Positions 3,681-57,581 of a stretch of 64,000 nt of DNA are shown here, piece after piece; position 1 is the stretch's first letter, and the number at the start of each line of letters is the position of its first letter. The stretch spans positions 21,821,182 to 21,885,181 of the forward strand of contig OX439037.1 of NCBI GenBank assembly GCA_949317995.1, read 5' to 3'. A program made the position numbers and the translations under genes. This stretch comes from Acholoe squamosa (lineage: Eukaryota; Annelida; Polychaeta; Phyllodocida; Polynoidae). The notes under the pieces were generated by a model. It did not search any database. It worked only from the letters and a program-made list of their open reading frames with translations, and was not told the origin of the DNA.

Positions 3681-6469
3681 TATATCATTTTATTTAAAGC
3701 AGTACCTTTCCCACGTTCAATACCCCCCAAAGTCCCTAAATGAAGGAGTTTATTCCATCTGGCCCTGTGGCTGCAGGCAGTGTGATCACCCTGTGCTGCA
3801 TGGTCCACTCTGCTCAAAACAGGTGCCACTGCCCCCATAGTCTATATATAGAGCAGTGGGGACACAATATCTCTCATTTTTTTCAACTTTGAACAGCTCT
3901 CAACCATTCCCATATATCAAAGATAGCATCATTCTGATTTTTAGTTTGCATTGATACATGTCTTTTCTGTCAGATTTACTATTTGCATAACATGTGAGAT
4001 GATCGATTAACTTTTCCATGTAACACCATATTTAGGGTCCTTGGATATGTACCAATACTAAGAACATTGTCAGGTTTACTATGCAAAATAGGCACTCAAG
4101 GGTGTTTGGGTCTAGGGAAATCAACCATCAAATGATTGATTCTTTAATAGCTCTCTCTGTGTATCAGCATTGATGCTGTTCACTTGTCAATACCAGTTTA
4201 GATTCCCAGATATTAGCCTCGAACAGAAAAGATAACAACCAGTCAAAATTGTAACCAACTTTAATACTATATCCTTACTCTGACAATGCTGTACATACAC
4301 ATTTTCTTAAATCAAAAAGGATTATGCACTAAATACAGACATATGATGGCACTCGAATAATCTTGAAAATACACTCTCGGTATATATACACATTATAGAA
4401 GTACAATATACACTAGACTGTGATTGTAAAGCATCAATATCTCATGGAAGTCACAAATATCCTTACCTACCGCCTGATAGCCTATCAAGTGCACTCTGTG
4501 TACTTAAGTACCTAGACAAAACTATACTAGTAATTATCATTGAATTGCCAGTGTCCTTTTGCACTTACCCAATTCGACAATCAGAGATATTGGTTAAAAC
4601 CAGCAAAATAATTTGCTGTGGCCCTAAATTTGTGAGAGCAGTTCAGCCATGAAGACATGATTCCTGAATGTTTGATATCATAAGAATCCTGGGGCCCACT
4701 CGCGAATCAGTCGCCATGATGCAATGCGATTGCCTGTCGACTACTACCCTTGAGTAGGGTGGGATGAATTCCATGGTGTGAGTGTAGGATGTTAGATGTT
4801 AGATGTAGGGTCCATGAGGTGATGATGTTATATTCTAGCACTTTAGTATACATTATCATATTAAGGCAGGCACCCTGTATAAAGTAGAACAGGGGTTGGC
4901 GGTAACATACACGATCCCTGATAGAATAATGGCTGGTCACAAGCATAGGTTTATGATTTATTTTGGCCCTCACTGCTGATAGATCTAAACAATGTAGATC
5001 ATGGTAGTAGTGCCATACGATTATATATACTATTGTTCTTATTGTTCCCCCAACATATTTACTGTAAATGCTATAAGACAGCATCATAGATCATTCACAT
5101 CTTAGTGAATACCATGGGAATGCATGTTAAAATGTTTGCCCTAACAATAGTATTTTACCTTCTTGTATAAGTTGATTAACACTAGGTATGTGATTTTGAA
5201 TTGGGACTAAAAAGCAGTGCTTATGGATATTTGTCAAGTAGTTGATTGGTGTTATCACACATTGGCTTCTAATTGACTCATATTTGAGCTTCAATCACAC
5301 TTTTCACCCTGTGTCTTTTGCTACTGCTGATATATTGAAGTACCTGCACCCTGATACAAACCAACCATTCTGGGGGATTTCATGTGAAGAATATACCATT
5401 TGAATCCATTTAAGTTATATCCATTCGTTTAGAATATGTGATTCTCTAAATTAAGAGTGTGATTCAATAAAAAGTGACAGAATTCAAATTTTACTAAAAG
5501 CCCACAACATCCATATTCTCAACTACATTCACACAATGAGAGTTTACCTTGAAGGGTTGCAATGTACCTCTCAGCCCATCTTTAGTTGTTGCCATGCACC
5601 AATGCAGTGCTATAGAAAGCCACCATAACACTGCTGTATTGTGCTTCATGCCAACCTTTCTGGATTGTATCAACATCTTACGATTGATCAGCATGATGCA
5701 TAAATGCAGCTGTGAGCTACTTGCTGGGATCACATTCAAATGCATCCTGGCATCCAGAGGTCATCATGCATTGATGCGCTATGTGCAAGTCGAGCATAAT
5801 GCACTATGTGGTCCATAGGACGAATAGATAATATGTAATTCTCGCTCATTTAAGAGACATTAGCTGGTATATATGTGTCAATCTGATCAAAGCCTCTCTC
5901 ATCGTTCCCATCACCTACTTCCAGCTCGATATATTACCTACGTGTTTTATCAAATCCCTTTCATTTAGAGAGAAGGTACTTATTTTCGCTATGGACCTCA
6001 TTTCTAAAAGCTTCATTCTTCACTGGCTACATTCATACCAACACTTAACATCAATGCATTTAGAATATCAGGAATGTCTTAATTGTCTAAGGAACACCCA
6101 ATGGAGGAGTGAAATATTTACACAACATATAGACAACATTATTTACAAATTAGTCCAATCCTTAATAAATCAGGAACTAGTGTCATTCGTAGATTTGCGT
6201 CTTGCTGTGCCTATAATATTGATCTACCCTTATTCTTATAGCAAATGTGAATTGGTAAGGTGTATACAACCATACACATATAAATTCTGTTCTGCAAAAG
6301 TCCCATAGGACTAACATTCATCAGACGCCCATAATGTAATTATTGAAGGTGAATGGCATCCTGCAACGTGAACAGAACTGCACATACATGAGCACAGTGA
6401 AAGATGTAAATGGTTGATGAGGTGTTATGGCAGTTCTGATGACGTCAGCAGTTCTGTGTAGATAGAGAA
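3681..6469. other. 3' flank of AIF1, no gene identified
   Basis: It contains a GCATTGATGC/GCATAATGC-type degenerate module at about 5750-5815 that recurs elsewhere in the window. Otherwise nothing is supported. Confidence 0.5.
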
Positions 6470-11596: not shown

Positions 11597-11747
11597 CATA
11601 AAGGTGTGTTTTCTATAAGGTTATGGTGTTCGGTTTAGTTTTTACATAGTAAGCAGCTAAACACAGATGCTCATGCATTGCAGATGTTTTTAAAAGAAAG
11701 AAGAAAAAGAAAGGAATTATAGTGTAGTATGGGATAGAATGAAGTGA

Positions 11748-12536
11748 ACAATCAATACCTATGACTTGAGTCCTGATGATCAGAGGAAACAAAGAGAACT
11801 ACGTGATTTAGCAAAATTCCTCAGTGACAAGGGTGTAAGAGTACAACAGAGAGGGCTTAACATTACTGTTAGTGGTACTAAATATGCCTATTCTGATGTT
11901 GAACTTCTCCCTGACGGTATGCGATTGTCTGACGCTAAATCACCACCTTGTATAGACGGAATGGGATTCCAGGGTCCGCATAGCTTCCTGTCGAACTTCT
12001 ACCCTGAGGATATTTATTACAAGGGTAATATGTATGCTACAGCCGAGGCATTATTCCAGCACGAAAAGGCAATTGTCTGTAAGCAGGATACTCTAGCTGA
12101 ACGAATTGCCAATACCATTTGCCCATACGAGGTAAAGAAACTCTCACACAAGATTATTGAGAATGCTGAGTGGGAGGAGAAACGGCTTCCCATAATGAGA
12201 AAAGTTCAACGTCTGAAGTATAGGCCTGATACATATCTCGAATACATGCTATACAACACAGATGGGCACCTGTATGAACTTGTCGCTGACAAATACTGGG
12301 GTTGTGGGCTACAATGGCATGAATATAAGCAGGTCAGACAAGCAACCATTAAGGGTGAAAACCACATGGGCAGAATTCTAGAGGAGTTGAGAGACGGGAC
12401 TCTGGAGGTTGACAGTGACTCTGATTCTGCTAGTGATAGTGACAAGGAAGAAGATATTGGTGACGATAGCTTTGATGAGAATATTAGAGCAGAGGAAGAT
12501 ATCCCTCCTCTTGAGGGCGACGATCAGCAAGCTTAG
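11748..12536 (+). CDS. NADAR-domain protein (ORF1 of the retrotransposon)
   Basis: Numbered from a TTG at 11766, the ORF is 256 residues. Residues 10-67 form an unfamiliar leader. Residues 68-209 match the NADAR/YbiA-like fold: PHSFLSNFYP (71-80), AEALFQ (93-98), W136 with KRLPIM, then NTDGHLYEL (164-172), YWGCGL (177-182) and GENHMG (197-202). Residues 215-250 are a Ser/Asp/Glu-rich acidic tail. NADAR proteins are tied to NAD/ADP-ribose metabolism, and some bacterial members remove ADP-ribose from guanine in DNA; activity here is inference. The frame is open from 11748, but its first ATG is codon 51, inside the region leading to the domain. The start is therefore unclear: non-AUG start, upstream frameshift or 5' loss. 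A retroelement ORF2 follows on the same strand. Confidence 0.85.
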   Translation, partial: TINTYDLSPDDQRKQRELRDLAKFLSDKGVRVQQRGLNITVSGTKYAYSDVELLPDGMRLSDAKSPPCIDGMGFQGPHSFLSNFYPEDIYYKGNMYATAEALFQHEKAIVCKQDTLAERIANTICPYEVKKLSHKIIENAEWEEKRLPIMRKVQRLKYRPDTYLEYMLYNTDGHLYELVADKYWGCGLQWHEYKQVRQATIKGENHMGRILEELRDGTLEVDSDSDSASDSDKEEDIGDDSFDENIRAEEDIPPLEGDDQQA

Positions 12537-12690
12537 ACATCCGAGACAAGGAAGAAGGGACGTGTATGACGAAATGTCCGACGGTATACATCCAAATCCC
12601 GAGTTACAAACCAGATGGGCACACATATTCAGCAACCACCGAGATATGCTTCAGAAGAAAATTGCTCGGTACGGTTATTTGGCGGTGTAA
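12537..12690 (+). pseudogene. Possible remnant of an SGNH-esterase C-terminus between ORF1 and ORF2
   Basis: In a frame shifted from the NADAR ORF, the segment reads RRDVYDEMSDGIHPNPELQ and then TRWAHIFSNHRDMLQKK before a stop at about 12690. DGIHPN resembles the catalytic D-x-x-H block of SGNH hydrolases, a domain known in ORF1 of several CR1-like elements. Only about 50 residues remain, so the call rests on one short motif. A simple shift near 12530 would join it to the acidic tail of the NADAR ORF. Confidence 0.35.
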
Positions 12691-13005
12691 CTTACAATTA
12701 TTACTGGTTATTGCTGTTTTGCACAATAGCAATAATAATAGTAAAAATTGATTTGATAGCAACATGTACTTGTGTGAGAGATATGACAAGTTGATAGTAT
12801 TAAATTTTTTATTGTACCTGTATGTTCTATAAAGTTAACTGTATTCACCAATCCACGCTCTAACGGTTATGATGAGCCACACATGCCATCTTAGATTACT
12901 GTTAGTTTATCTTACTAACCCTAGAATATACTTTTTTTGGTACGGGATAGGGGGGAGGGTGGGATTGACCATGAGTGAAAGAACTGGTGATGTAAATATA
13001 TTTAA

Positions 13006-15882
13006 ATGACGACAATTGATGTAAAGGACTTTGTGAGGGAGAATTCACTTAATGTAACCCATATTAATATTAGAAGTATACGGAATAAAACTGCAAGTTT
13101 TCCACTTCTTTACGAAAACACAAATATAGATTTTTTAACATGTTCTGAATCATGGTTGACCGATAGAGATTTAAGCTCTGAGTATCAATTGAGGGGTTTT
13201 AATATGTACAGGAACGATAGGACATGGTTGGAAGAAGGTAGAATTAAAAAGGCTGGTGGACTTATTACTTATGTTAAAAAAGAATTTGTGACATTGGACA
13301 ACTATTCACATTTAAATATGTCGACCAAAGATATTGAATTACTATGTACTTATGTAGCTAGGGAGAATAGGAAAAACCTATTAATATTAAACGTGTATAG
13401 ACCGCCTCAAGGGGATTTCGATGTCTTTTGGAATAGATTGCAAGCTGTTATAAGTAATATTGAGGACAGAGACAGGAAAGAAATTTTCATATTAGGCGAC
13501 ATGAATGTTGATTTTTTATTAACTGCTCATCCAAATACAATTGAATTGAAGGAGGGTATGGCGGGATATGGGCTACTGAGTTTTATACATGTTCCAACTC
13601 GATATCCTGTTAACTTCAATGATAAAATTGCCTGTCTAGATTTGATCTTTTCAAATAGTTTGTCAATTACTGATGCTGGCTGTGCAACTTGTAATTTAAG
13701 TGACCATGAAATGGTTTTTGTAGTATGTAAGCATGATAGGCCTCAAGTTGAGACAAAAGTTGATATCAAATGTCGATCTATGAAAAAATATGATAAGGAT
13801 TTATTTATTAAGTCACTTAGTGAATTCAATTGGAACAAATTTTATTTGACCAATGATGTTGATACACTATGGAGTATTATGTTAAAGAGGATAAACCATG
13901 TGTTGGATGTAATGTGTCCCTATGTAACTCACAGGGCAAATTCAAACTCGAAACCCTGGGCCACTCCTGAGTTAATTGGTCAAATTAGACATAAGGATAA
14001 TGTACTACAACGTGCTAAGAAGAGTGGTGATAGGCATAGAATTTCGGCGGCACATATAGAAAGGAATAAGGGCACTCAATTGACAGATAAAGCTAAGGGG
14101 GATTTTTTCAAACAAAAAATCTGGGAAAGTAAGGGTGATCAAAAAAACTTTTGGCGGGAAGTTAAAAAGGTATTACCACAAAAGAAAGGGGAACTACCAA
14201 TTATTAATCTTACTGATATGAGTACCGGTGACCTTATGCCTGTCCACACTGTTGCAATGTATATTAATGATTACTTTACAAATATTGGGTATAATTTGTC
14301 CAAAGATAACAACACAATATGGAGTTTCGATGGGCCTTTTGACGAAGAAGATGGTAATATAGCCATGACTACTGACAGAAATGAAGTTCTAAAATTGCTA
14401 AATAATATAGCAACACATAAAACTAGTGGGGTAGACGGTATTAAAGGGAATGTTATGAAAGACGCATTGGTTGCCCTATTGGATCAGGTCACTCATATGT
14501 TTAATGTATCACTTGAGACTGGTATTATTCCTAACAGTTGGAAGAGCGCCTGTATTGTACCGATTCCTAAAGATGGTAATCCGAATCTAGTGGAGAATTA
14601 TCGGCCAATCTCACTTCTGTGTACCCCAGCCAAGATTTTAGAAAAAATAGTTTATTCAAAACTCATGCGGCATTTAGATACATTTGAAATTTTGACTGAC
14701 AGACAGGGAGGTTATAGGAAAGGGTTTTCCACTATACAAACAGTAGGGGAATTAACTGATGACATACTAAGAGACAGAAATGTGGGTATTGAAACGGTGG
14801 CTGTGTATATAGACCTGAAAAAGGCCTTTGATACGGTTGACCACTTTATTCTTCTTAAAAAATGTGAAAAGTATGGTATTAAGGGTAAAGCTCTGTCCTG
14901 GCTCAATAATTATCTCAGTGGGAGACAACAGTGTACTTTGGCCAATAATGTCAAGTCGGATTATTTACCTATTACTTGTGGAGTGCCTCAAGGATCTACC
15001 TTAGGACCCTTATTATTTCTAATTTATGTCAATGATGTTGTACATGTCTGTGATAATAGCAAGATTCTTCTATATGCTGATGATACAGTTATTTACCATT
15101 CAGGAGGGGATAAGAAAGTTGTAACCCAACAGTTACAAAATGACCTGAATAAGTATAATGATTGGTGCTCTAAAAATAAGTTGACAATTAACATCAAAAA
15201 AACTAAATTCATGTGTTTCGGCCTCAGTCATAGATGGAAAAATTGCAAATTTAAAATTGGTGATCAGCAGATTCATGAAGTTAAGCAATATAAATATTTA
15301 GGAGTAATTCTTGATCAGGCATTAAATTATCAGAAGTTTATTGAAAATCAGTTAAGAACAGTTAATTTTCGTACCTATCAATTGACAAGAATGAATAGGT
15401 ATATAGATATAGATACTGCTGTTTTGATTTATAAGACGTTCATCTTACCCATTCTTGAATATGGTAATGTATTATTGTATGAATGTAATGTAACACATCT
15501 GGTCAGAATGCAAAGAGCACAGAATAGAGCCTTAAAAGTTGCATTAAGAAGGAATTACATGGAATCAACTAATATTATACATTTCGATGCAAATATTAAT
15601 AAGCTGGAAACTAGAATGGTTGCTCACATTCTTTTAGCAGCATACAAAAGGTCAAGACAACAAAAATATGTAGACCAAAGAAGGCTGCATACTAGAGCTT
15701 GGGATGCACCTATTCTTAAGTGTTATACTCCACACGCTAAATCATATATCAGAAGTATGGAATGGAATTTAGCTTTCCAATGGAATAATTTGGATCCTGA
15801 AGACCGAAATTCTCCTTCCTTTCAGTCCTTTAAATATGAAGTTAAAAAATTCCTACAAACAAATCTTCCGGGTAAAGACTAG
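13006..15882 (+). CDS. Retrotransposon ORF2: apurinic-like endonuclease plus reverse transcriptase, 958 aa, intact
   Basis: The protein copies element RNA into DNA at a nicked target (target-primed reverse transcription). The ATG at 13006 is preceded in frame by TAA. Residues about 16-240 form an EEP endonuclease with N21 in HINIRS, E48 in SESWL, GDMN at 164-167 and SDH at 232-234. The reverse transcriptase shows NYRPISLL (531-538), AFDTVDH (607-613), GVPQGSTLGPLLF (from 659) and YADD (690-693). The C-terminal part has the RMQRAQNRAL motif typical of CR1/Jockey-group proteins. There is no RNase H and no zinc finger. No stop or frameshift interrupts it, so the copy may be recently active. Confidence 0.95.
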   Translation: MTTIDVKDFVRENSLNVTHINIRSIRNKTASFPLLYENTNIDFLTCSESWLTDRDLSSEYQLRGFNMYRNDRTWLEEGRIKKAGGLITYVKKEFVTLDNYSHLNMSTKDIELLCTYVARENRKNLLILNVYRPPQGDFDVFWNRLQAVISNIEDRDRKEIFILGDMNVDFLLTAHPNTIELKEGMAGYGLLSFIHVPTRYPVNFNDKIACLDLIFSNSLSITDAGCATCNLSDHEMVFVVCKHDRPQVETKVDIKCRSMKKYDKDLFIKSLSEFNWNKFYLTNDVDTLWSIMLKRINHVLDVMCPYVTHRANSNSKPWATPELIGQIRHKDNVLQRAKKSGDRHRISAAHIERNKGTQLTDKAKGDFFKQKIWESKGDQKNFWREVKKVLPQKKGELPIINLTDMSTGDLMPVHTVAMYINDYFTNIGYNLSKDNNTIWSFDGPFDEEDGNIAMTTDRNEVLKLLNNIATHKTSGVDGIKGNVMKDALVALLDQVTHMFNVSLETGIIPNSWKSACIVPIPKDGNPNLVENYRPISLLCTPAKILEKIVYSKLMRHLDTFEILTDRQGGYRKGFSTIQTVGELTDDILRDRNVGIETVAVYIDLKKAFDTVDHFILLKKCEKYGIKGKALSWLNNYLSGRQQCTLANNVKSDYLPITCGVPQGSTLGPLLFLIYVNDVVHVCDNSKILLYADDTVIYHSGGDKKVVTQQLQNDLNKYNDWCSKNKLTINIKKTKFMCFGLSHRWKNCKFKIGDQQIHEVKQYKYLGVILDQALNYQKFIENQLRTVNFRTYQLTRMNRYIDIDTAVLIYKTFILPILEYGNVLLYECNVTHLVRMQRAQNRALKVALRRNYMESTNIIHFDANINKLETRMVAHILLAAYKRSRQQKYVDQRRLHTRAWDAPILKCYTPHAKSYIRSMEWNLAFQWNNLDPEDRNSPSFQSFKYEVKKFLQTNLPGKD

Positions 15883-16398
15883 TTGCTCAGTCCCACCTCT
15901 CCTCCTAAATCCCAAAAATGACTAGAAAGGTTGTTTATTGATCATCTTTATTACTAACACGGGTATGAAAATTACGGGTGTTTTGCACAATACCTGTTAA
16001 TATTAATATAAGCGATAGTGGGAAGTTTGACGTTTTGCACAATGTCATTCTTCGTAGGGTTCTTTGTGTACAACTTAGTGTTCAGTTAATAAGTTGTAAT
16101 GTTATTATATGACTACTGAAGTGATGTATGGTAGCATTCTTGATTGAATTGTTCTAAAAATACTTACTGCAGTTAAAATACTCTGATTGTTTTGTACTCA
16201 TACCACCATCTTTATAATAGTTATTTTTCCTAGGCGTTGAACATAGTAAGGGTTGCCAACTTAAATATTAGTCTTTCATAGACTAAGCGGCGACCCGTCT
16301 TTATTGTCGCTTTGGTTAATTATGGATCTGTATTTATTTTTGTACATTGTTGAACTATTGCAATAAAGACAAATTCAAATTCAAAAATTCAAATTCAC
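15883..16398 (+). other. 3' UTR, poly(A) signal and tail of the NADAR retrotransposon
   Basis: Two short stem-loops are visible: GTCTTTCATAGAC at 16271-16283, and GCGAC...GTCGC pairing 16290-16294 with 16306-16310. AATAAA lies at 16362-16367, followed by a tail of CAAATTC repeats. Such 3' structures and short-repeat tails are commonly recognised by the element's own reverse transcriptase. Confidence 0.7.
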
Positions 16399-16980
16399 AC
16401 TGTTGAATTTATCAACTCTTTTTATCGGGTGCAGGTTTTATACAACAAGGGACATTATTAGTGACATTGCTTTTAGAAAGTCATGGAACGATTTAATATC
16501 TTTGAAGAGCCATTAATCTGCACAGCTATTAATGGGAGAATTGAAGGGGATTGTAACCTCTCAACCAAAGATGAAAAATGCATGTCAAGATGGCTGTGTA
16601 CACATGGTAAAGGTTATCTGTACTGGAGGGGATAGGATGTGTCATCCTATCTAAGCCAGGTAGCCCTCCAAAAGAAAGCCCCTCTCCCATACATAATGAT
16701 CAAATGTCGTTACATATACATATATACATATTAGTGTATATTGCTTTCGAGATATTGTTGAGGTTTGTCGCCTTGGTGGAAAACACCATATAGCCAGATC
16801 CATCTAGATCCAACCCCTGTCATGTTCTCAAAATGTTAACTTGATAACGTACATGTCATATCTACAGGTGTCCGAAATGACTACAGAGGCCCTTTATTGT
16901 TATAAGTCCAGGGAACACATAGCAATGAAGAAATTTGAATATTCAGAGTGAGCATAAATGCCCTTAGCATTAGTTTGATC

Positions 16981-17393
16981 AGAACTACCACGGTTAGCTC
17001 ATTTATAGATTGACCAGAACTTCCACGGTTAGCTCATTTATAGATTGACCAGAACTACCACGGTTAGCTCATTTATAGATTGACCAGAACTACCACGGTT
17101 AGCTCATTTATAGATTGACCAGAACTACCACGGTTAGCTCATTTATAGATTGACCAGAACTACCACGGCTAGCTCATTTATAGATTGACCAGAACTACCA
17201 CGGCTAGCTCATTTATAGATTGACCAGAACTACCACGGTTAGCTCATTTATAGATTGACCAGAACTACCACGGTAAGCTCATTTATAGATTGACCAGAAC
17301 TACCACGGCTAGCTCATTTATAGATTGACCAGAACTACCACTGTTAGCTCATTTATAGATTGACCAGAACTACCACGGCTAGCTCATTGTGGG
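16981..17393. repeat. 35-bp satellite, 12 tandem copies
   Basis: The unit begins AGAACTACCACGGTTAGCTC and continues ATTTATAGATTGACC. Copies start every 35 bp from 16981 to 17366. They are nearly identical, with variants such as GGCTAG or GGTAAG for GGTTAG. The last copy is cut off where ordinary sequence resumes. Nothing coding is visible. Confidence 0.97.
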
Positions 17394-22496: not shown

Positions 22497-23707
22497 ATGG
22501 ATACAAACAAAAAAACCTACAAACAATTCCAGGGAGACCCTAAACAGGCCTCTTTCTTCCTCCTCTCCTCTGCGGGAGAGGAAAACATCAAGAGGGTAAA
22601 CCCCTTCGTCCTCACCAAAACCATTGAGGGACAGATAGGCACACCCAAAAAGGTGAAATGCCTCTACCAATCAGGCCAAGTCCTAATTGATGTAGCAACC
22701 AAAACGCAAGTCCCGAACTTGCTAAAACTTACAAAGATTGATGGCATGGAGGTGAAGGTTGAACCCCACCCCAGCCTTAACACTTCAAAGGGCTTTCTTT
22801 TTGACCGCCCAGGTATCCTGAGTGAGTGCTCAGAGCAAACAGTCTTAGACGGGCTGAGGGACCAAGGCGTCGTGGCCATCAGACGCCTGCACTCGAAGCG
22901 AGAACAGCGCCCACTTAACATCTATGTGTGCACCTTTGCCTCACTAGCGCGCCCTTATGTACAACAGACTCCGGGTAGAAACCTTCTACCCAAACCCCTT
23001 GGGGTGCTTCAAGTGCCAAGCATTTGGACACCACAGCGACAGATGCCGGTCGAAAGCCAGATGCCTTAATTGTGCATCGCAGGACCATGAAAAAGATAGC
23101 TGCACATCTTCCCCTTTCTGTCCCAATTGCAAAGGAGACCACACAGCGAATTCCCCAGCTTGCCCTCAGTGGCTGCTGGAGAAAAAGGCTCTGAAACTCA
23201 AAGTTGATGAAGAGATAACTATGAGAGAGGCCCGTAAAAGGGTGCAACCAGTGCAGCCCCTCTATGCAGCTGCAACAAAGGAGAAAGTGACAACTCAGTC
23301 ACTACTAGAAAAACTGAAACAAGCACCAGTGAGTGTAATGAGGGAACTCATTGTAGCCCTCATGCATCAGGTGAAAGCGGCTGAAGAAAAAGCTGCAGCA
23401 AAAAAACCAAAAACCTACACGTCCACAAAACTCTGAGGACTTGATAATCTCTGAAACATCACCTTCTCCAGCACAGTCTAAACATGACACTGGTCCTAAA
23501 GAGAAGTCATTGGCAGAACATCATCCTCAGACACAGGCTGCTGCACAGCAAGATTCCCTTTCTGCCGAGGAGAAGGAGACCCAAGAACCTTTAACGCCAG
23601 CACCAAAAAAGACCCCTAATTCGGAGAGATCACCCTCAAAGCCATCATATTCAACGGCGCTGACAGAGAAAAGCCCACTCGGCTCTCCACCAAACCAGCC
23701 TCATTGA
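22497..23707 (+). pseudogene. ORF1 (Gag-like, triple zinc knuckle) of the I-like element, two frameshifts
   Basis: The product would bind element RNA in a ribonucleoprotein. From the ATG at 22497 the first frame covers an RRM-like region. Near 22950 the coding sense moves to another frame, which carries YNPNPL-type spacing and three zinc fingers: CFKCQAFGHHSDRC (from 23005), CLNCASQDHEKDSC and CPNCKGDHTANSPAC. The third knuckle, with its short CX3H and HX6C spacing, is typical of I- and Jockey-group ORF1. A second shift lies in the A run at 23399-23406; the Pro/Ser/Lys-rich tail then continues to a stop at 23707. Both shifts could be decay or sequencing error, since one lies in a homopolymer. 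Confidence 0.85.
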
Positions 23708-42365: not shown

Positions 42366-44072
42366 TCAATCAGTAGTTTTGACAGATGCGTCATCTGAGC
42401 TGGGTAACACAACTGTTATCTTCTTCGTGTTGTCTCCTTGATATCTCTGCTCTTGAGATGGTTCCTCTGCAGCATCCCCCTCTCCCTCACCCACCTCCCC
42501 ATTCCCTACGTTAGCTCCATCGTCCGGGGACACCTCGATATCAGGGACAGTCGATTCCATATTTGTCGCCAGGTTTGGTTTGACCGATTGCTTGTTCCCG
42601 GCGGCGGTCCCCTTTTGCTGGTGACCTATCTGCAGGTTGGACACGCCGGTTACAGGCCAGTCTCCTGTAGTCTTGGTCACGTGACCTGCCCAGGTACTGG
42701 GTGCGGCCCCCAACCTGTCGCCCCCCACCAATAGGTCAAAACACCCATTCTCCTTTATCGTTCTCCGTGAAGGGCCCTGTGAGCTCTGATTTGGCTGACC
42801 GTGAGAGGTTCGGTCATGTTTACTATGGTGTAAGTCTTCAAAAGAAACACTGGGCCTCATTGCAGGTCCAGCAGCCGCACCGACCCCAGCTTGTAAGACG
42901 CGACCGGAAGCGTCCATCCGCACCTCCTGGTAGTCCTCGTCCGCGGCGTCGTCGTCTTCTTCCGCTTCCGACCCAGAGCTTGGGGGCGGCGGTACATAGG
43001 TGGTGTTCTTCTGCTTGTGGCGGATGTAGTTGAGGAGCGCGGTGGTGTCGACTTCCGGTTTGGCATTGTTGCCCACGGAGGAGGTGTAGAAGGAGTCGTT
43101 AAGGTATTTGTGGAGGACAGTTGGAGTGGACAGACCTTGTGACTCGTACCAGTCGGCACCGGAAGTGGGCTGCAGGATGAACTGCTGTTCCTGACGTCGC
43201 TCTTCCCGCTGACGTCGCTCCTTCGCACCACTCCGCCGGATGTTGTTCCCTGTCGCTTTCTCACGGCCGAGCAGTGCGGAAGTGCGGGGTGAGGTGGCGC
43301 TAGCATCAGTGCCAGCCCCCTCCCCACCTACTGCCGACCCCGCCAGACGGAGCTGCGGATCCTGCCGACTGCGCATGCGACTGCGTAGTGCGTCCTGCCG
43401 GGCCGGAAGTGTTACCTCTATGGTGGAAGGGACGATACTGGCACGGCTGTCTACAGTCATCCGTGAGTACTGGTCCCGGCAGGTGTCGCCGCTGTACGAC
43501 CCATCCTCGACGTCCTGAGTGACAAATGCGCGGCTGGCGGAGAAGAATTCTGTGCACGACCTCGTCACCGCCCCTTGTCGCTGCTGCAGCGCCGCACGTC
43601 GGCGGGCTTCCCGTTTCCGGGCCATGAATTCCACCTCCCCCGGGGTGAGCACACTAGAGCGGTACACACCCTGGCTGTTCCGCGTCCGGCGCCGTGTTAA
43701 CGCCGTCGGCGGCAGACCGTCGGCGGTGTCGCCAGATCGCGAAACTGTGTTCCGGTTCCGGCTGTGCACCTTGTGGATGAGCGGCCAGGCCTGCAGGATG
43801 TGGTCGGGGATGTCGTGGTCAAAAGGACGCGCGCTGTGCGCAGGCGCCTCAGGACCAAGGTTTACAGTGGTTGCCGGGCGTGGGGTGGGGTGAGGTCCTT
43901 CCGGCATGCCGTCCGACATGGCCTTGCCGTCCTGTGACGTTGCACCACGCTGCTGAGGTCGTAGTGATGACTTTATGGCAGGTGCGTCATGTGACATAGC
44001 CATACGTTTTCTAGCACCAGGGCTGAGTGCAGACGGGGGTTTATATACCATATAGCTCGTCATGGTGAACAC
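42366..44072 (-). CDS. Unrecognised 568-aa protein, intron-less, GC-rich, mostly disordered
   Basis: I do not recognise the family. The ORF begins MFTMTSYMVYKPP at 44072 and ends VKTTD before TGA at 42366. Its DNA is clearly richer in G+C and CpG than the surroundings, and an open frame of this length is not expected by chance. The sequence is low in hydrophobic residues and has no signal peptide or membrane segment. A basic stretch, ARKREARRRAALQQRQ, lies around residues 150-165 and a charged one, AKERRQREERRQEQQ, around 282-297. A short possibly folded piece, GADWYESQGLSTPTVLHKYL, follows at about 305. A proline run and acidic block (SGSEAEEDDDAADED) sit around 362-385. The C-terminal 100 residues are Gly/Glu/Asp/Ser-rich. 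Three CRE-like sites lie 76-128 bp upstream. It may be a nuclear or cytoskeletal scaffold; function is not known. Confidence 0.75.
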   Translation of the reverse strand: MFTMTSYMVYKPPSALSPGARKRMAMSHDAPAIKSSLRPQQRGATSQDGKAMSDGMPEGPHPTPRPATTVNLGPEAPAHSARPFDHDIPDHILQAWPLIHKVHSRNRNTVSRSGDTADGLPPTALTRRRTRNSQGVYRSSVLTPGEVEFMARKREARRRAALQQRQGAVTRSCTEFFSASRAFVTQDVEDGSYSGDTCRDQYSRMTVDSRASIVPSTIEVTLPARQDALRSRMRSRQDPQLRLAGSAVGGEGAGTDASATSPRTSALLGREKATGNNIRRSGAKERRQREERRQEQQFILQPTSGADWYESQGLSTPTVLHKYLNDSFYTSSVGNNAKPEVDTTALLNYIRHKQKNTTYVPPPPSSGSEAEEDDDAADEDYQEVRMDASGRVLQAGVGAAAGPAMRPSVSFEDLHHSKHDRTSHGQPNQSSQGPSRRTIKENGCFDLLVGGDRLGAAPSTWAGHVTKTTGDWPVTGVSNLQIGHQQKGTAAGNKQSVKPNLATNMESTVPDIEVSPDDGANVGNGEVGEGEGDAAEEPSQEQRYQGDNTKKITVVLPSSDDASVKTTD

Positions 44073-56427: not shown

Positions 56428-57581
56428 TAATTCCGTCCCAACCGGGGTACTGCGTCAATGTGCTCAAAGACATGTATATATATCGGGATGAAGGTCACGT
56501 GACCACAGCCTATTTTATAGACTTTACAAAGGCATTTGACTGTGTCTATCATGTAATTCTACTAAATAAGTTAAACCTCCTAAACATACCGAGATATTAC
56601 AAGAAATGGTTGAAGGGTTACCTGAGTAACAGATCACGTGTAACGATTGCTAATGGATCGCGGTCAACAGCAGATAGTGTCCGTTTTGGAGTCCCACAGG
56701 GCTCCATCTTGGGCCCGTTGCTTTTTGTCCTCTTTATTAACGACCTCCCGGATGTCCTAATTCACTCCAAATGCATAATGCATGCAGATGACGTACTTTT
56801 ATATTGTTCACATGAAAATCATATGGAAGCAAACAGACTGCTCCAAGCTGACCTGCAGAATGTCCATAACTGGTGCTGTCGTAATTTCATGACCGTGAAC
56901 ACAAAGAAAAGCATGGTGATGTATTTCAGTGCTGGTAATAGAATCGATAGACTAGCTGGACCCAACCTCTTTTTGGGTGGTAAACAGCTCCCAATTTTTA
57001 AGTCATACTGTTACTTGTGCGTCGAATTGGATTGTAAACTAAGTGTTGCAAGCCAAATAACCAAAATCAAAAAAGGGCTAGGTAACAAAATGTACAAACT
57101 AAACAAGCTGCGAAAATTTATACCAGGCGACCACTGTATTACAATTTACAAGAGAACAATTGTTCCTACACTAGAGTATTGCTCATTCTACACAGGTAGT
57201 GGGCACAAGTCTGAACTTGACAAATTACAGCACTTGCAAAATCGGGCACTCAGAATATGCCTAAGGCTGCAGGTATGAGATGTATCAATCCATGAGCTGC
57301 ACTCTCGGTGTGATGTAGACCTGTTGCATACACGTCGTCAGGTTCAACTCCTGTTGACTATGTGGAAACTAAGTCAATCAGGTCAGGGAATAATAATTGA
57401 AAATATAAGAACTCGTGGTGACAGGAAGATAAAATTTACTCGGAGATGTGCACGAACAACCTTTTACTAAAGGTGTCCGTACTACCGGGGTGGTAGCCTA
57501 TGGAACAAATTGACCTATCAACAACAACATGTGAATAGTAAACTAAAATTCAGAGCAATCGCAAATCCACACTGTGCCTAA
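56428..57581 (+). pseudogene. Reverse transcriptase fragment with frameshift and stop codons
   Basis: It opens in one frame with FRPNRGT, then shifts near 56470 into the main frame (to 57278). That frame shows FIDFTKAFDCVYH, FGVPQGSILGPLLF and MHADDVLLY, where the usual YADD is HADD. The family's C-terminal QHLQNRALRICLRL follows. A stop at 57277-57279 and another at about 57468 interrupt the C-terminal region, which continues recognisably (VSIHELHSRCDVDLLHTRR) to about 57581. The endonuclease half is absent. The protein cannot be functional. Confidence 0.88.

Follow-up and report, generated by a model that had tools for sequence, protein, structure and literature searches.

The DNA analysed here (the window) is a stretch of 64,000 nucleotides from the polychaete Acholoe squamosa. 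On its forward strand, which carries all features described below, lies a 5'-truncated and internally deleted transposable element copy (11761..16393). Judged by its sequence this is a non-LTR retrotransposon: an AP-type endonuclease (EN) and a reverse transcriptase (RT) share one ORF, and there are many dispersed copies. Long matches to other family copies in the 1.48-Gb genome are mostly 97-99% identical, and the family appears recently active. It is presumably CR1/Jockey-like, a label that comes from sequence motifs and not from a tree with reference clades.

A preliminary description had the element start at 11640. Homology to other copies begins only at 11761 and ends around 16393; positions 1-121 of the query (from 11640) have no counterpart among the copies listed. 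The same description placed a NADAR ORF upstream of an intact 958-aa endonuclease/RT on the same strand, and this is what is found, at 11766-12536 and 13006-15882, with a gap of 469 bp.

The copy is defective in two ways, by the truncation at 11761 and by the loss of about 635 bp between the ORFs. What remains of ORF1 (11761..12536) is an open frame with the end of an L1-ORF1p-like region, the NADAR domain, an acidic tail and a stop codon. The junction of the internal deletion lies at 12535..12538, and its flanks map to reference positions 5120 and 5756 in copy C11. A spliced intron was considered as the source of the gap and ruled out, because the ends lack GT...AG. Most of an SGNH/GDSL-like ORF went with the deletion; its 3' remnant (12539..12690) is collinear with the end of L018:759-1472. 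Next comes a stretch of about 130 bp (12712..12840) that is missing in most copies listed and present, at least partly, in L010 and L014, which makes it a length difference between copies.

ORF2 (13006..15882) is intact. Its RT matches RVT_1 over residues 520-769 (E=1.1e-39), and compared with L1 ORF2p the match is confined to the RT part. The N-terminal AP-like endonuclease match is weak: the profile stays under its cut-off in the ORF2s of the window and L018, and exceeds it in those of L050 and L056. The 3' UTR (15883..16393) carries short caaattc-type tail repeats, as described earlier, and its 3' end is common to the copies. The search for a target-site duplication at the window copy gave 5-bp matches only; many CR1-type elements have no such duplication.

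NADAR as the C-terminal domain of ORF1p

Full-length copies are about 5.95 kb long and contain ORF1, an SGNH/GDSL-like ORF and ORF2. In these copies the NADAR frame extends upstream to an ATG, as one open frame of 486 aa, unbroken from the coiled-coil and L1-like part. ORF1 itself has 470 aa, consisting of a coiled coil, a weakly L1-ORF1p-like part, NADAR and an acidic tail. In copy C11 it occupies reference positions 3706-5118, with the ATG about 640 bp further upstream than the window remnant; the TTG start listed for the window ORF is merely the first candidate past a stop codon. NADAR is thus the C-terminal domain of ORF1p, and not an ORF1 by itself as initially proposed.

In the window the domain lies at 11976..12395. 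It matches PF08719 with E=3.3e-24 and 86.4 bits, against a curated cut-off of 35.1, and was aligned with 8bau and YbiA. The translation then continues into a C-terminal tail rich in Ser, Asp and Glu (12396..12533). The likeness of the middle part of ORF1 to L1 ORF1p is weak. An 8-row profile searched against the PDB found the L1 ORF1p coiled coil at E=0.035 and its RRM/CTD at E=0.25, with unrelated coiled coils scoring alike, and L039 has no Pfam match to Transposase_22.

The SGNH/GDSL-like ORF has 237 aa in full-length copies and stands between ORF1 and ORF2. That of L018 matches PF13472 at E=4.3e-4 and 21.3 bits, under the cut-off of 32.9, while that of L050 has no Pfam match. GDS- and DGxHP-like motifs are found in L018 and are mostly gone from the other rows. 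An SGNH profile searched against the PDB gave no significant match.

Known NADAR site residues have counterparts in the window: E94 corresponds to E43, K101 to K50, W136 to W89, R140 to R93, E171 to E125, D175 to D130 and W178 to W133. The window family as such keeps E43, K50 and E125. Among 12 transposable element (TE) families with NADAR, E43 and W89 are found in all, K or R at K50 in 10 and E at E125 also in 10; W133 is replaced in five. The site table and the NADAR tree leave out L003 and L005, where the NADAR frame is broken, and L055 and L056, near-copies of L054 and L052. The exception to this conservation is R79, which is H128 in the window. It is absent in 12/12 TE NADARs and present in 18 of 19 bacterial rows (picked for spread from 65 loci), both stand-alone rows and one of three phage rows. 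Since R79 contacts the pyrophosphate, ligand and specificity of the TE NADARs may differ.

The L044/L048 lineage has lost both K50 and E125 and retains the domain. Its dN/dS is around 0.14, with dS near saturation. Because the domain looks constrained despite these losses, it probably serves a non-catalytic function, in this lineage at any rate.

NADAR in ORF1p recurs in several RT lineages

Besides the window element, 17 copies have an ORF2 match over residues 1-958. The NADAR stretch lies upstream in 10 of them, in nine with the whole window ORF and in one from residue 47. The other seven (L010, L012, L015, L021, L025, L027 and L028) show staggered 5' truncation downstream of NADAR, so the association is not a matter of chance. 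More generally, copies form nested 5' truncations with a common 3' end, their breakpoints scattered through ORF1, NADAR and ORF2.

Three family searches extend this, resting on 150 scored NADARs out of 3224 candidates in the genome. A NADAR was found at most 7 kb upstream of EN/RT in 63/103, 22/44 and 18/47 ORF2s with a preserved 5' end. Conversely, 103 of the 150 scored places (22+63+18) have an EN/RT ORF downstream. In these searches no opposite-strand NADAR was found within 7 kb upstream of the ORF2s. In family L007, whose EN is L1-type (best PDB match LINE-1 ORF2p), NADAR lies upstream at a median distance of 500 bp. NADAR in ORF1p recurs in several RT lineages.

The domain is also maintained. 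Among 12 copies of the window family, NADAR has 3 nonsynonymous and 12 synonymous variants, a ratio of about 0.06 (binomial p=1e-6 against an N-site fraction of 0.80). This is not the neutral decay that the preliminary description had named as evidence against its reading, and it supports NADAR as a coding part of the element under strong purifying selection. Over matched sets of 11-12 copies the ratio is 0.06 for NADAR versus 0.15-0.24 for SGNH, EN and RT; this stronger constraint on NADAR falls short of significance (p=0.09, or 0.11 without the window copy). Compared with the ORF2 RT in an unmatched copy set, the constraint on NADAR is stronger with p=0.006.

All this bears on whether the NADAR ORF might be an unrelated neighbour or passenger gene beside a LINE. 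Solely the separation of the two ORFs in the window speaks for that. Genome-wide co-linearity and staggered truncations reject a chance neighbour, and the unbroken frame that it shares with the other parts of ORF1 and the purifying selection also count against a passenger. The preliminary description had also named related copies without NADAR as counter-evidence, but those examined are either truncated at the 5' end or show no recognisable ORF1 over the 3.2 kb upstream. We regard this possibility as refuted.

Where the domain came from is less clear. The idea that retroelement NADARs form one clade is neither established nor clearly rejected: a single origin of all 12 TE rows has AU p=0.053, rising to 0.167 without L007. 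A clade of nine rows (without L007, L051 and L052, which are long branches in the NADAR tree) is rejected at p=0.010, which leaves the inner branching unsure. In the tree the window NADAR and that of L007, itself on a long branch, do not come together. For six families, the NADAR and ORF2 trees both pair the window with L053 and L006 with L054, the latter pair weakly supported in the NADAR tree. The stand-alone NADAR genes of this genome were rejected as the source of the window NADAR (clade of window with L001/L002, AU p=3e-5). Phages offer no clear donor, with identities to the window NADAR of at most about 33% among the 20 matches listed of 494 records. The single scan of viral contigs, which used peptide patterns from the L052 NADAR, turned up no relative.

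Possible function of the ORF1p NADAR

As a working model, ORF1p would coat the element RNA as a ribonucleoprotein (RNP). Its NADAR domain would act on that RNP as an ADP-ribosyl hydrolase or N-glycosidase, and would remove ADP-ribose, most likely from guanine, in the element RNA, in the cDNA made from it or in the nicked target. From sequence comparison we give this model about an even chance; its RNP location, the substrate, which host transferase (if any) is involved and what the element gains are all things that we infer. A eukaryotic NADAR, that of P. nicotianae, reverses guanine ADP-ribosylation (PMC11543638). For the E. coli C7 NADAR, Schuller et al. report an essential K50 equivalent, at which R is accepted in vitro, and a loss of efficient activity on substitution at the E125 position (PMC11543638). 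A PF22596 profile for Scabin-like (pierisin/CARP-type) ADP-ribosyltransferases had no match over the genome, but as the controls were equally silent this result says nothing either way. The hemocyanin-domain profile PF14830 likewise gave no match, and its controls were silent too.

The domain could instead be a binding or structural module, such as a reader of ADP-ribose or nucleic acid or a packaging domain, with hydrolase activity weak or irrelevant. The loss of R79 in all 12 families, the replacement of W133 in 5/12 and the constrained domain of L044/L048 without K50 and E125 all fit this. Against it, 10/12 divergent families keep K/R at K50 and E at E125, all twelve keep E43 and W89, and the window family shows few amino-acid changes; we consider such a module possible but rather unlikely. 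Less probable again, and in our view quite unlikely, is that NADAR targets soluble NAD-, ADP-ribose- or riboflavin-type metabolites or immune signals, and not nucleic acid. For E. coli YbiA the described reaction is cleavage of an N-glycosidic bond in riboflavin intermediates (PMC11543638), for viral NADARs a preference for soluble ADP-ribose derivatives has been proposed (PMC9503650), and a changed R79 site could fit another ligand. The fusion with a coiled-coil, weakly L1-like ORF1 protein argues for action on the RNP instead, and macromolecular targets have been proposed for the NADARs of animal RNA viruses (PMC9503650).

The eraser model can be taken further. The LINE ORF1 NADAR of this genome may be an active eraser of ADP-ribose on guanine (or nucleic-acid ends) that serves as counter-defence, captured or swapped by several lineages, one of which turned it into a non-catalytic reader. 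This is tentative, and on the present comparisons somewhat improbable. It would imply a defence of invertebrate hosts in which retrotransposons are held in check by ADP-ribosylation of their RNA or cDNA.

LINE ORF1 proteins are mostly regarded as RNA chaperones. A constrained ADP-ribose-processing domain in the ORF1p of several RT lineages would suggest that ADP-ribosylation of nucleic acids puts pressure on retrotransposons, and that elements carrying it may need to resist host ADP-ribosylation. Lineages with intact and degraded active sites provide natural contrasts. The fusion also bears on the role of eukaryotic NADARs.

Comparison with known systems

The preliminary description was not aware of any account of NADAR and LINE as a functional system. 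The pairing itself has a precedent: a 2025 paper notes a YbiA-type NADAR in the ORF1 protein of Tx1 LINEs of the oyster Crassostrea gigas (PMC12477816). A. squamosa also has a family, L007, with an L1-type EN and an upstream NADAR. The window family differs in its distinct ORF2 (958 aa, GVPQGSTLGPLLF RT) and in having a separate SGNH-like ORF. A retroelement with a captured NADAR is also known from Ectocarpus, but there it is an LTR element, Gypsy, with NADAR in Pol (PMC12477816).

CR1/L2 LINEs have type II ORF1s (coiled coil, RRM, CTD), which resemble the coiled-coil, weakly L1-ORF1p-like N-terminal part, and type IV esterase ORF1s (PMC4120745; ZfL2-1 esterase, PMC3905857), which resemble the SGNH/GDSL-like product encoded upstream of EN-RT. 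The window family instead fuses NADAR after the type II-like part and keeps the SGNH-like protein as a separate ORF. The paper on these ORF1 types (PMC4120745) mentions neither NADAR nor 'mollus'.

With P. nicotianae NADAR (8bau), E. coli YbiA (2b3w) and DarT1-associated NADARs, the window copy shares E43, K50, W89, R93, E125, D130 and W133, but it has H at R79 and sits in a retrotransposon protein. By its last-strand Glu (E125; neither Asp nor His) it is of the YbiA subfamily type. The DarT1-NADAR antitoxin (BC4488 type) has Asp at E125, where the window has E171, and a neighbouring DarT; the ORFs read beside window-family NADARs are LINE ORFs, with no ADP-ribosyltransferase.

Polyproteins of animal RNA viruses similarly encode NADAR alongside the polymerase that replicates an RNA-based parasite, in a viral polyprotein as opposed to a retrotransposon (PMC9503650). 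As far as the literature was searched, what is new here is the CR1/Jockey-like NADAR fusion, its spread, the evidence for selection and the lineage with a degraded site.

Anatomy of the element and its copy in the window

Read from single genomic copies on contigs C11, C4, C7 and C14, the full-length element is about 5.95 kb long. Its ORF1 has 470 aa from the ATG and consists, in this order, of a low-complexity start, a coiled coil, an L1 ORF1p-like part, the NADAR domain and an acidic tail. The L1 likeness is weak: in profile comparisons with the PDB, the L1 ORF1p coiled coil scores E=0.035 and the RRM/CTD part E=0.25, with unrelated coiled coils intermixed. Next come an SGNH/GDSL-like ORF of 237 aa (PF13472 at E=4.3e-4, under the cut-off) and, 3' of it, an ORF2 of 958 aa. 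The preliminary description took NADAR to be the ORF1 itself; it does lie in the element, but in full-length copies it is only one domain of the 470-aa ORF1.

The window (C3:21821182-21885181 of the 1.48-Gb genome) carries a NADAR ORF at 11766-12536 (PF08719, E=3.3e-24) and an endonuclease/reverse transcriptase ORF at 13006-15882 (RVT_1 E=1.1e-39; endonuclease match under the cut-off). A DNA search of the genome, with 36 of 675 candidates scored, gave long copy matches of 97-99% identity. Query positions 1-121 (11640-11760) match no copy among the matches listed, so the window copy starts at 11761. The element had been placed at 11640..16398; the copy is present, but its 5' start moves accordingly. 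5' truncation has cost this copy nearly half of ORF1, and a deletion of some 635 bp has removed the greater part of the SGNH-like ORF. Splicing was rejected as the cause of this gap, splice signals being absent.

At 12971-13009, a 12-codon ORF ends in an ATGA that overlaps the ORF2 start codon. It is found at the same place in the L018 copy, and is possibly a reinitiation signal. Just downstream of the element, at 16971-17388, a 35-bp unit is repeated in tandem 11.9 times with 96% matches. By eye, a pair of overlapping ORFs at 22497-23436, which has a CCHC-knuckle region, resembles ORF1 of a different LINE type, and 56460-57278 is a reverse transcriptase fragment (FGVPQGSILGPLLF) from another LINE. 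A 568-aa ORF of uneven composition lies on the minus strand at 42366-44072.

Association of NADAR with ORF2

The NADAR ORF could in principle belong to a neighbour of the element. In the numbering of the full-length C11 copy, however, copies are 5' truncated at 4343, 4987, 5006, 5212, 5523, 5942, 6005, 6313 and 6858, among others; these points are scattered across ORF1, the downstream edge of NADAR, the SGNH-like ORF and ORF2. Such staggering through all ORFs is as expected if all were reverse-transcribed from one RNA. Apart from the window copy, 11 of those listed match the complete window ORF. In ten of them an open frame of 486-492 aa runs over the ORF1-NADAR border (with an internal TGA in one of these); in the last it measures 387 aa. 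ORF2 is matched over its full span in 17 other copies; NADAR is present in 10 of these, and in the remaining 7 the truncation point lies downstream of it. This means that NADAR is part of the element, as had been proposed, and lies at the same place in other copies.

The upstream region was also fetched for seven distant ORF2 relatives (38-54% identical). Three (L044, L048, L049) have an ORF1 with NADAR and then an SGNH-like ORF, with the EN start also visible in L048 and L049; the other four (L043, L045, L046, L047) have no recognisable ORF1 within 3.2 kb upstream of ORF2. For two more distant ORF2s, C9:17893772 and C15:28623133, comparison by eye finds a NADAR listed upstream.

Three other ORF2 families, queried with loci L050, L007 and L056, were compared by coordinates with 150 scored NADARs (of 3224 candidates). 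The 5' end of ORF2 counted as preserved if the match started by residue 15 (L050) or 20 (L007, L056). A listed NADAR precedes ORF2 by at most 7 kb, in the same orientation, in 22 of 44 such cases with L050, 63 of 103 with L007 and 18 of 47 with L056; unmatched ORF2s are little informative because only 150 of 3224 candidates were scored. In these sets, none of the 150 lies within this distance in the opposite orientation. The chance rate per ORF2 is about 0.0004 for the listed NADARs and would rise to 0.008 if all 3224 first-look candidates were counted. The three sets share no members (by eye), so an ORF of this kind follows at least 103 of the 150. All 18 pairs of the L056 family are spaced 597-610 bp apart, a near-constant distance from NADAR to EN. 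Family L053 has further pairs outside this count, for example C1:122489362 with NADAR C1:122488574.

On C17, one NADAR LINE (L006:2440-3237, L050:86-817) apparently has a tandem pair of SGNH-like ORFs separating ORF1 from ORF2. A third RT lineage (L052:657-2702, L056:1-1185) has NADAR and an SGNH-like stretch, with a weak SASA match, in one ORF1.

Active site and selection

Residue numbers and roles follow PMC11543638. Over 12 families of retrotransposon (TE) NADARs, E43 and W89 are in all 12, D130 in 11 and W133 in 7. The K50 position holds K in 8, R in 2 and Q in 2 (L044, L048); E125 is kept in 10, with Y or F in L044 and L048. According to the same paper, changes at the K50 or E125 position abolished or impaired activity of the E. 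coli C7 NADAR. Thus 10 of the 12, including the window's, keep K/R and E at both activity-critical positions. R79, the pyrophosphate contact, is in none of the 12 (D in 6, K in 4, H in 2); elsewhere it is in 18 of 19 bacterial, 2 of 2 stand-alone and 1 of 3 phage rows. Judged by these residues, the pyrophosphate pocket is changed in all 12.

Neutral decay would be the other outcome. The NADAR variants found across 12 copies speak against it: 3 are nonsynonymous and 12 synonymous, which at an N-site fraction of 0.80 gives a ratio of 0.06 (p=1e-6). On 11-12 matched copies the ratios are 0.24 for SGNH, 0.15 for EN and 0.23 for RT plus C-terminus; on these, NADAR does not differ significantly from the rest of the element (p=0.09; 0.11 without the window). 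Between window and L049 NADARs, synonymous sites are saturated.

One LINE lineage (L044:1993-3201 and L048:1897-3201, minus strand) lacks K50 and E125. Its NADAR looks catalytically dead, yet still constrained (L044 versus L048 dN/dS about 0.14, dS near saturation). This is a natural contrast between catalytic and structural NADAR roles.

Lineages, proposed mechanism and known NADAR retroelements

The top two Pfam hits for NADAR, L001 and L002, look like stand-alone genes, judged within 1.5-kb flanks. L001 shares 59-60% identity with Paenibacillus proteins and is far nearer to bacteria than most TE NADARs. A 36-row NADAR tree splits bacteria and stand-alone genes from the other TE rows (branch support 97/98), with L007 among the bacteria on a long branch. 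One clade (98/90) unites the window NADAR with those of L049, L044 and L048; L053 attaches to it next (94/79), and three phage rows adjoin this group (96/86). Neither a single nor a repeated capture of NADAR is provable.

ORF2 pieces of the window, L050, L051, L053 and L055 match each other by BLAST at 25-39% identity, and we take this group to be CR1/Jockey-like from its RT motifs. L052/L056 are distant from it (21-26%); the piece from L007, which covers only the endonuclease, gives no BLAST hit to the other families' pieces. In small trees built from NADAR and from ORF2, two family pairs recur (NADAR-tree support 93/89 and 50/29), and the attachment of L051 and L052 differs. Co-inheritance of NADAR and ORF2 would therefore fit for the closer splits only.

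Most likely, ORF1p brings NADAR into the RNP, where it would strip ADP-ribose from element nucleic acid or the nicked target. The NADAR fusion, its recurrence, the selection and the residues are observed; RNP location, substrate, host enzyme and benefit we infer. PMC11209040 describes a guanine-N2 DNA ADP-ribosylating activity (CARP-1) in six edible clams; such a modification would give sense to a guanine eraser. A genome search with PF22596 (Scabin-like) gave no hit, with controls equally silent.

The preliminary description was aware of no account of this pairing as a functional system; NADAR in a retroelement has in fact been noted before. PMC12477816 notes the domain both in the Pol of an Ectocarpus Gypsy element and in several C. 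gigas Tx1 LINEs, where it is part of ORF1, and proposes RNA processing as its role. Among the papers listed by searches of the accessible literature for NADAR or YbiA with retroelements, this one alone treats the subject, and a CR1/Jockey-type fusion, copy-level selection and a degraded-site lineage did not turn up there. The L1-type endonuclease of L007 (best PDB match LINE-1 ORF2p, 7.7e-25) is in keeping with the Tx1 LINEs of PMC12477816.
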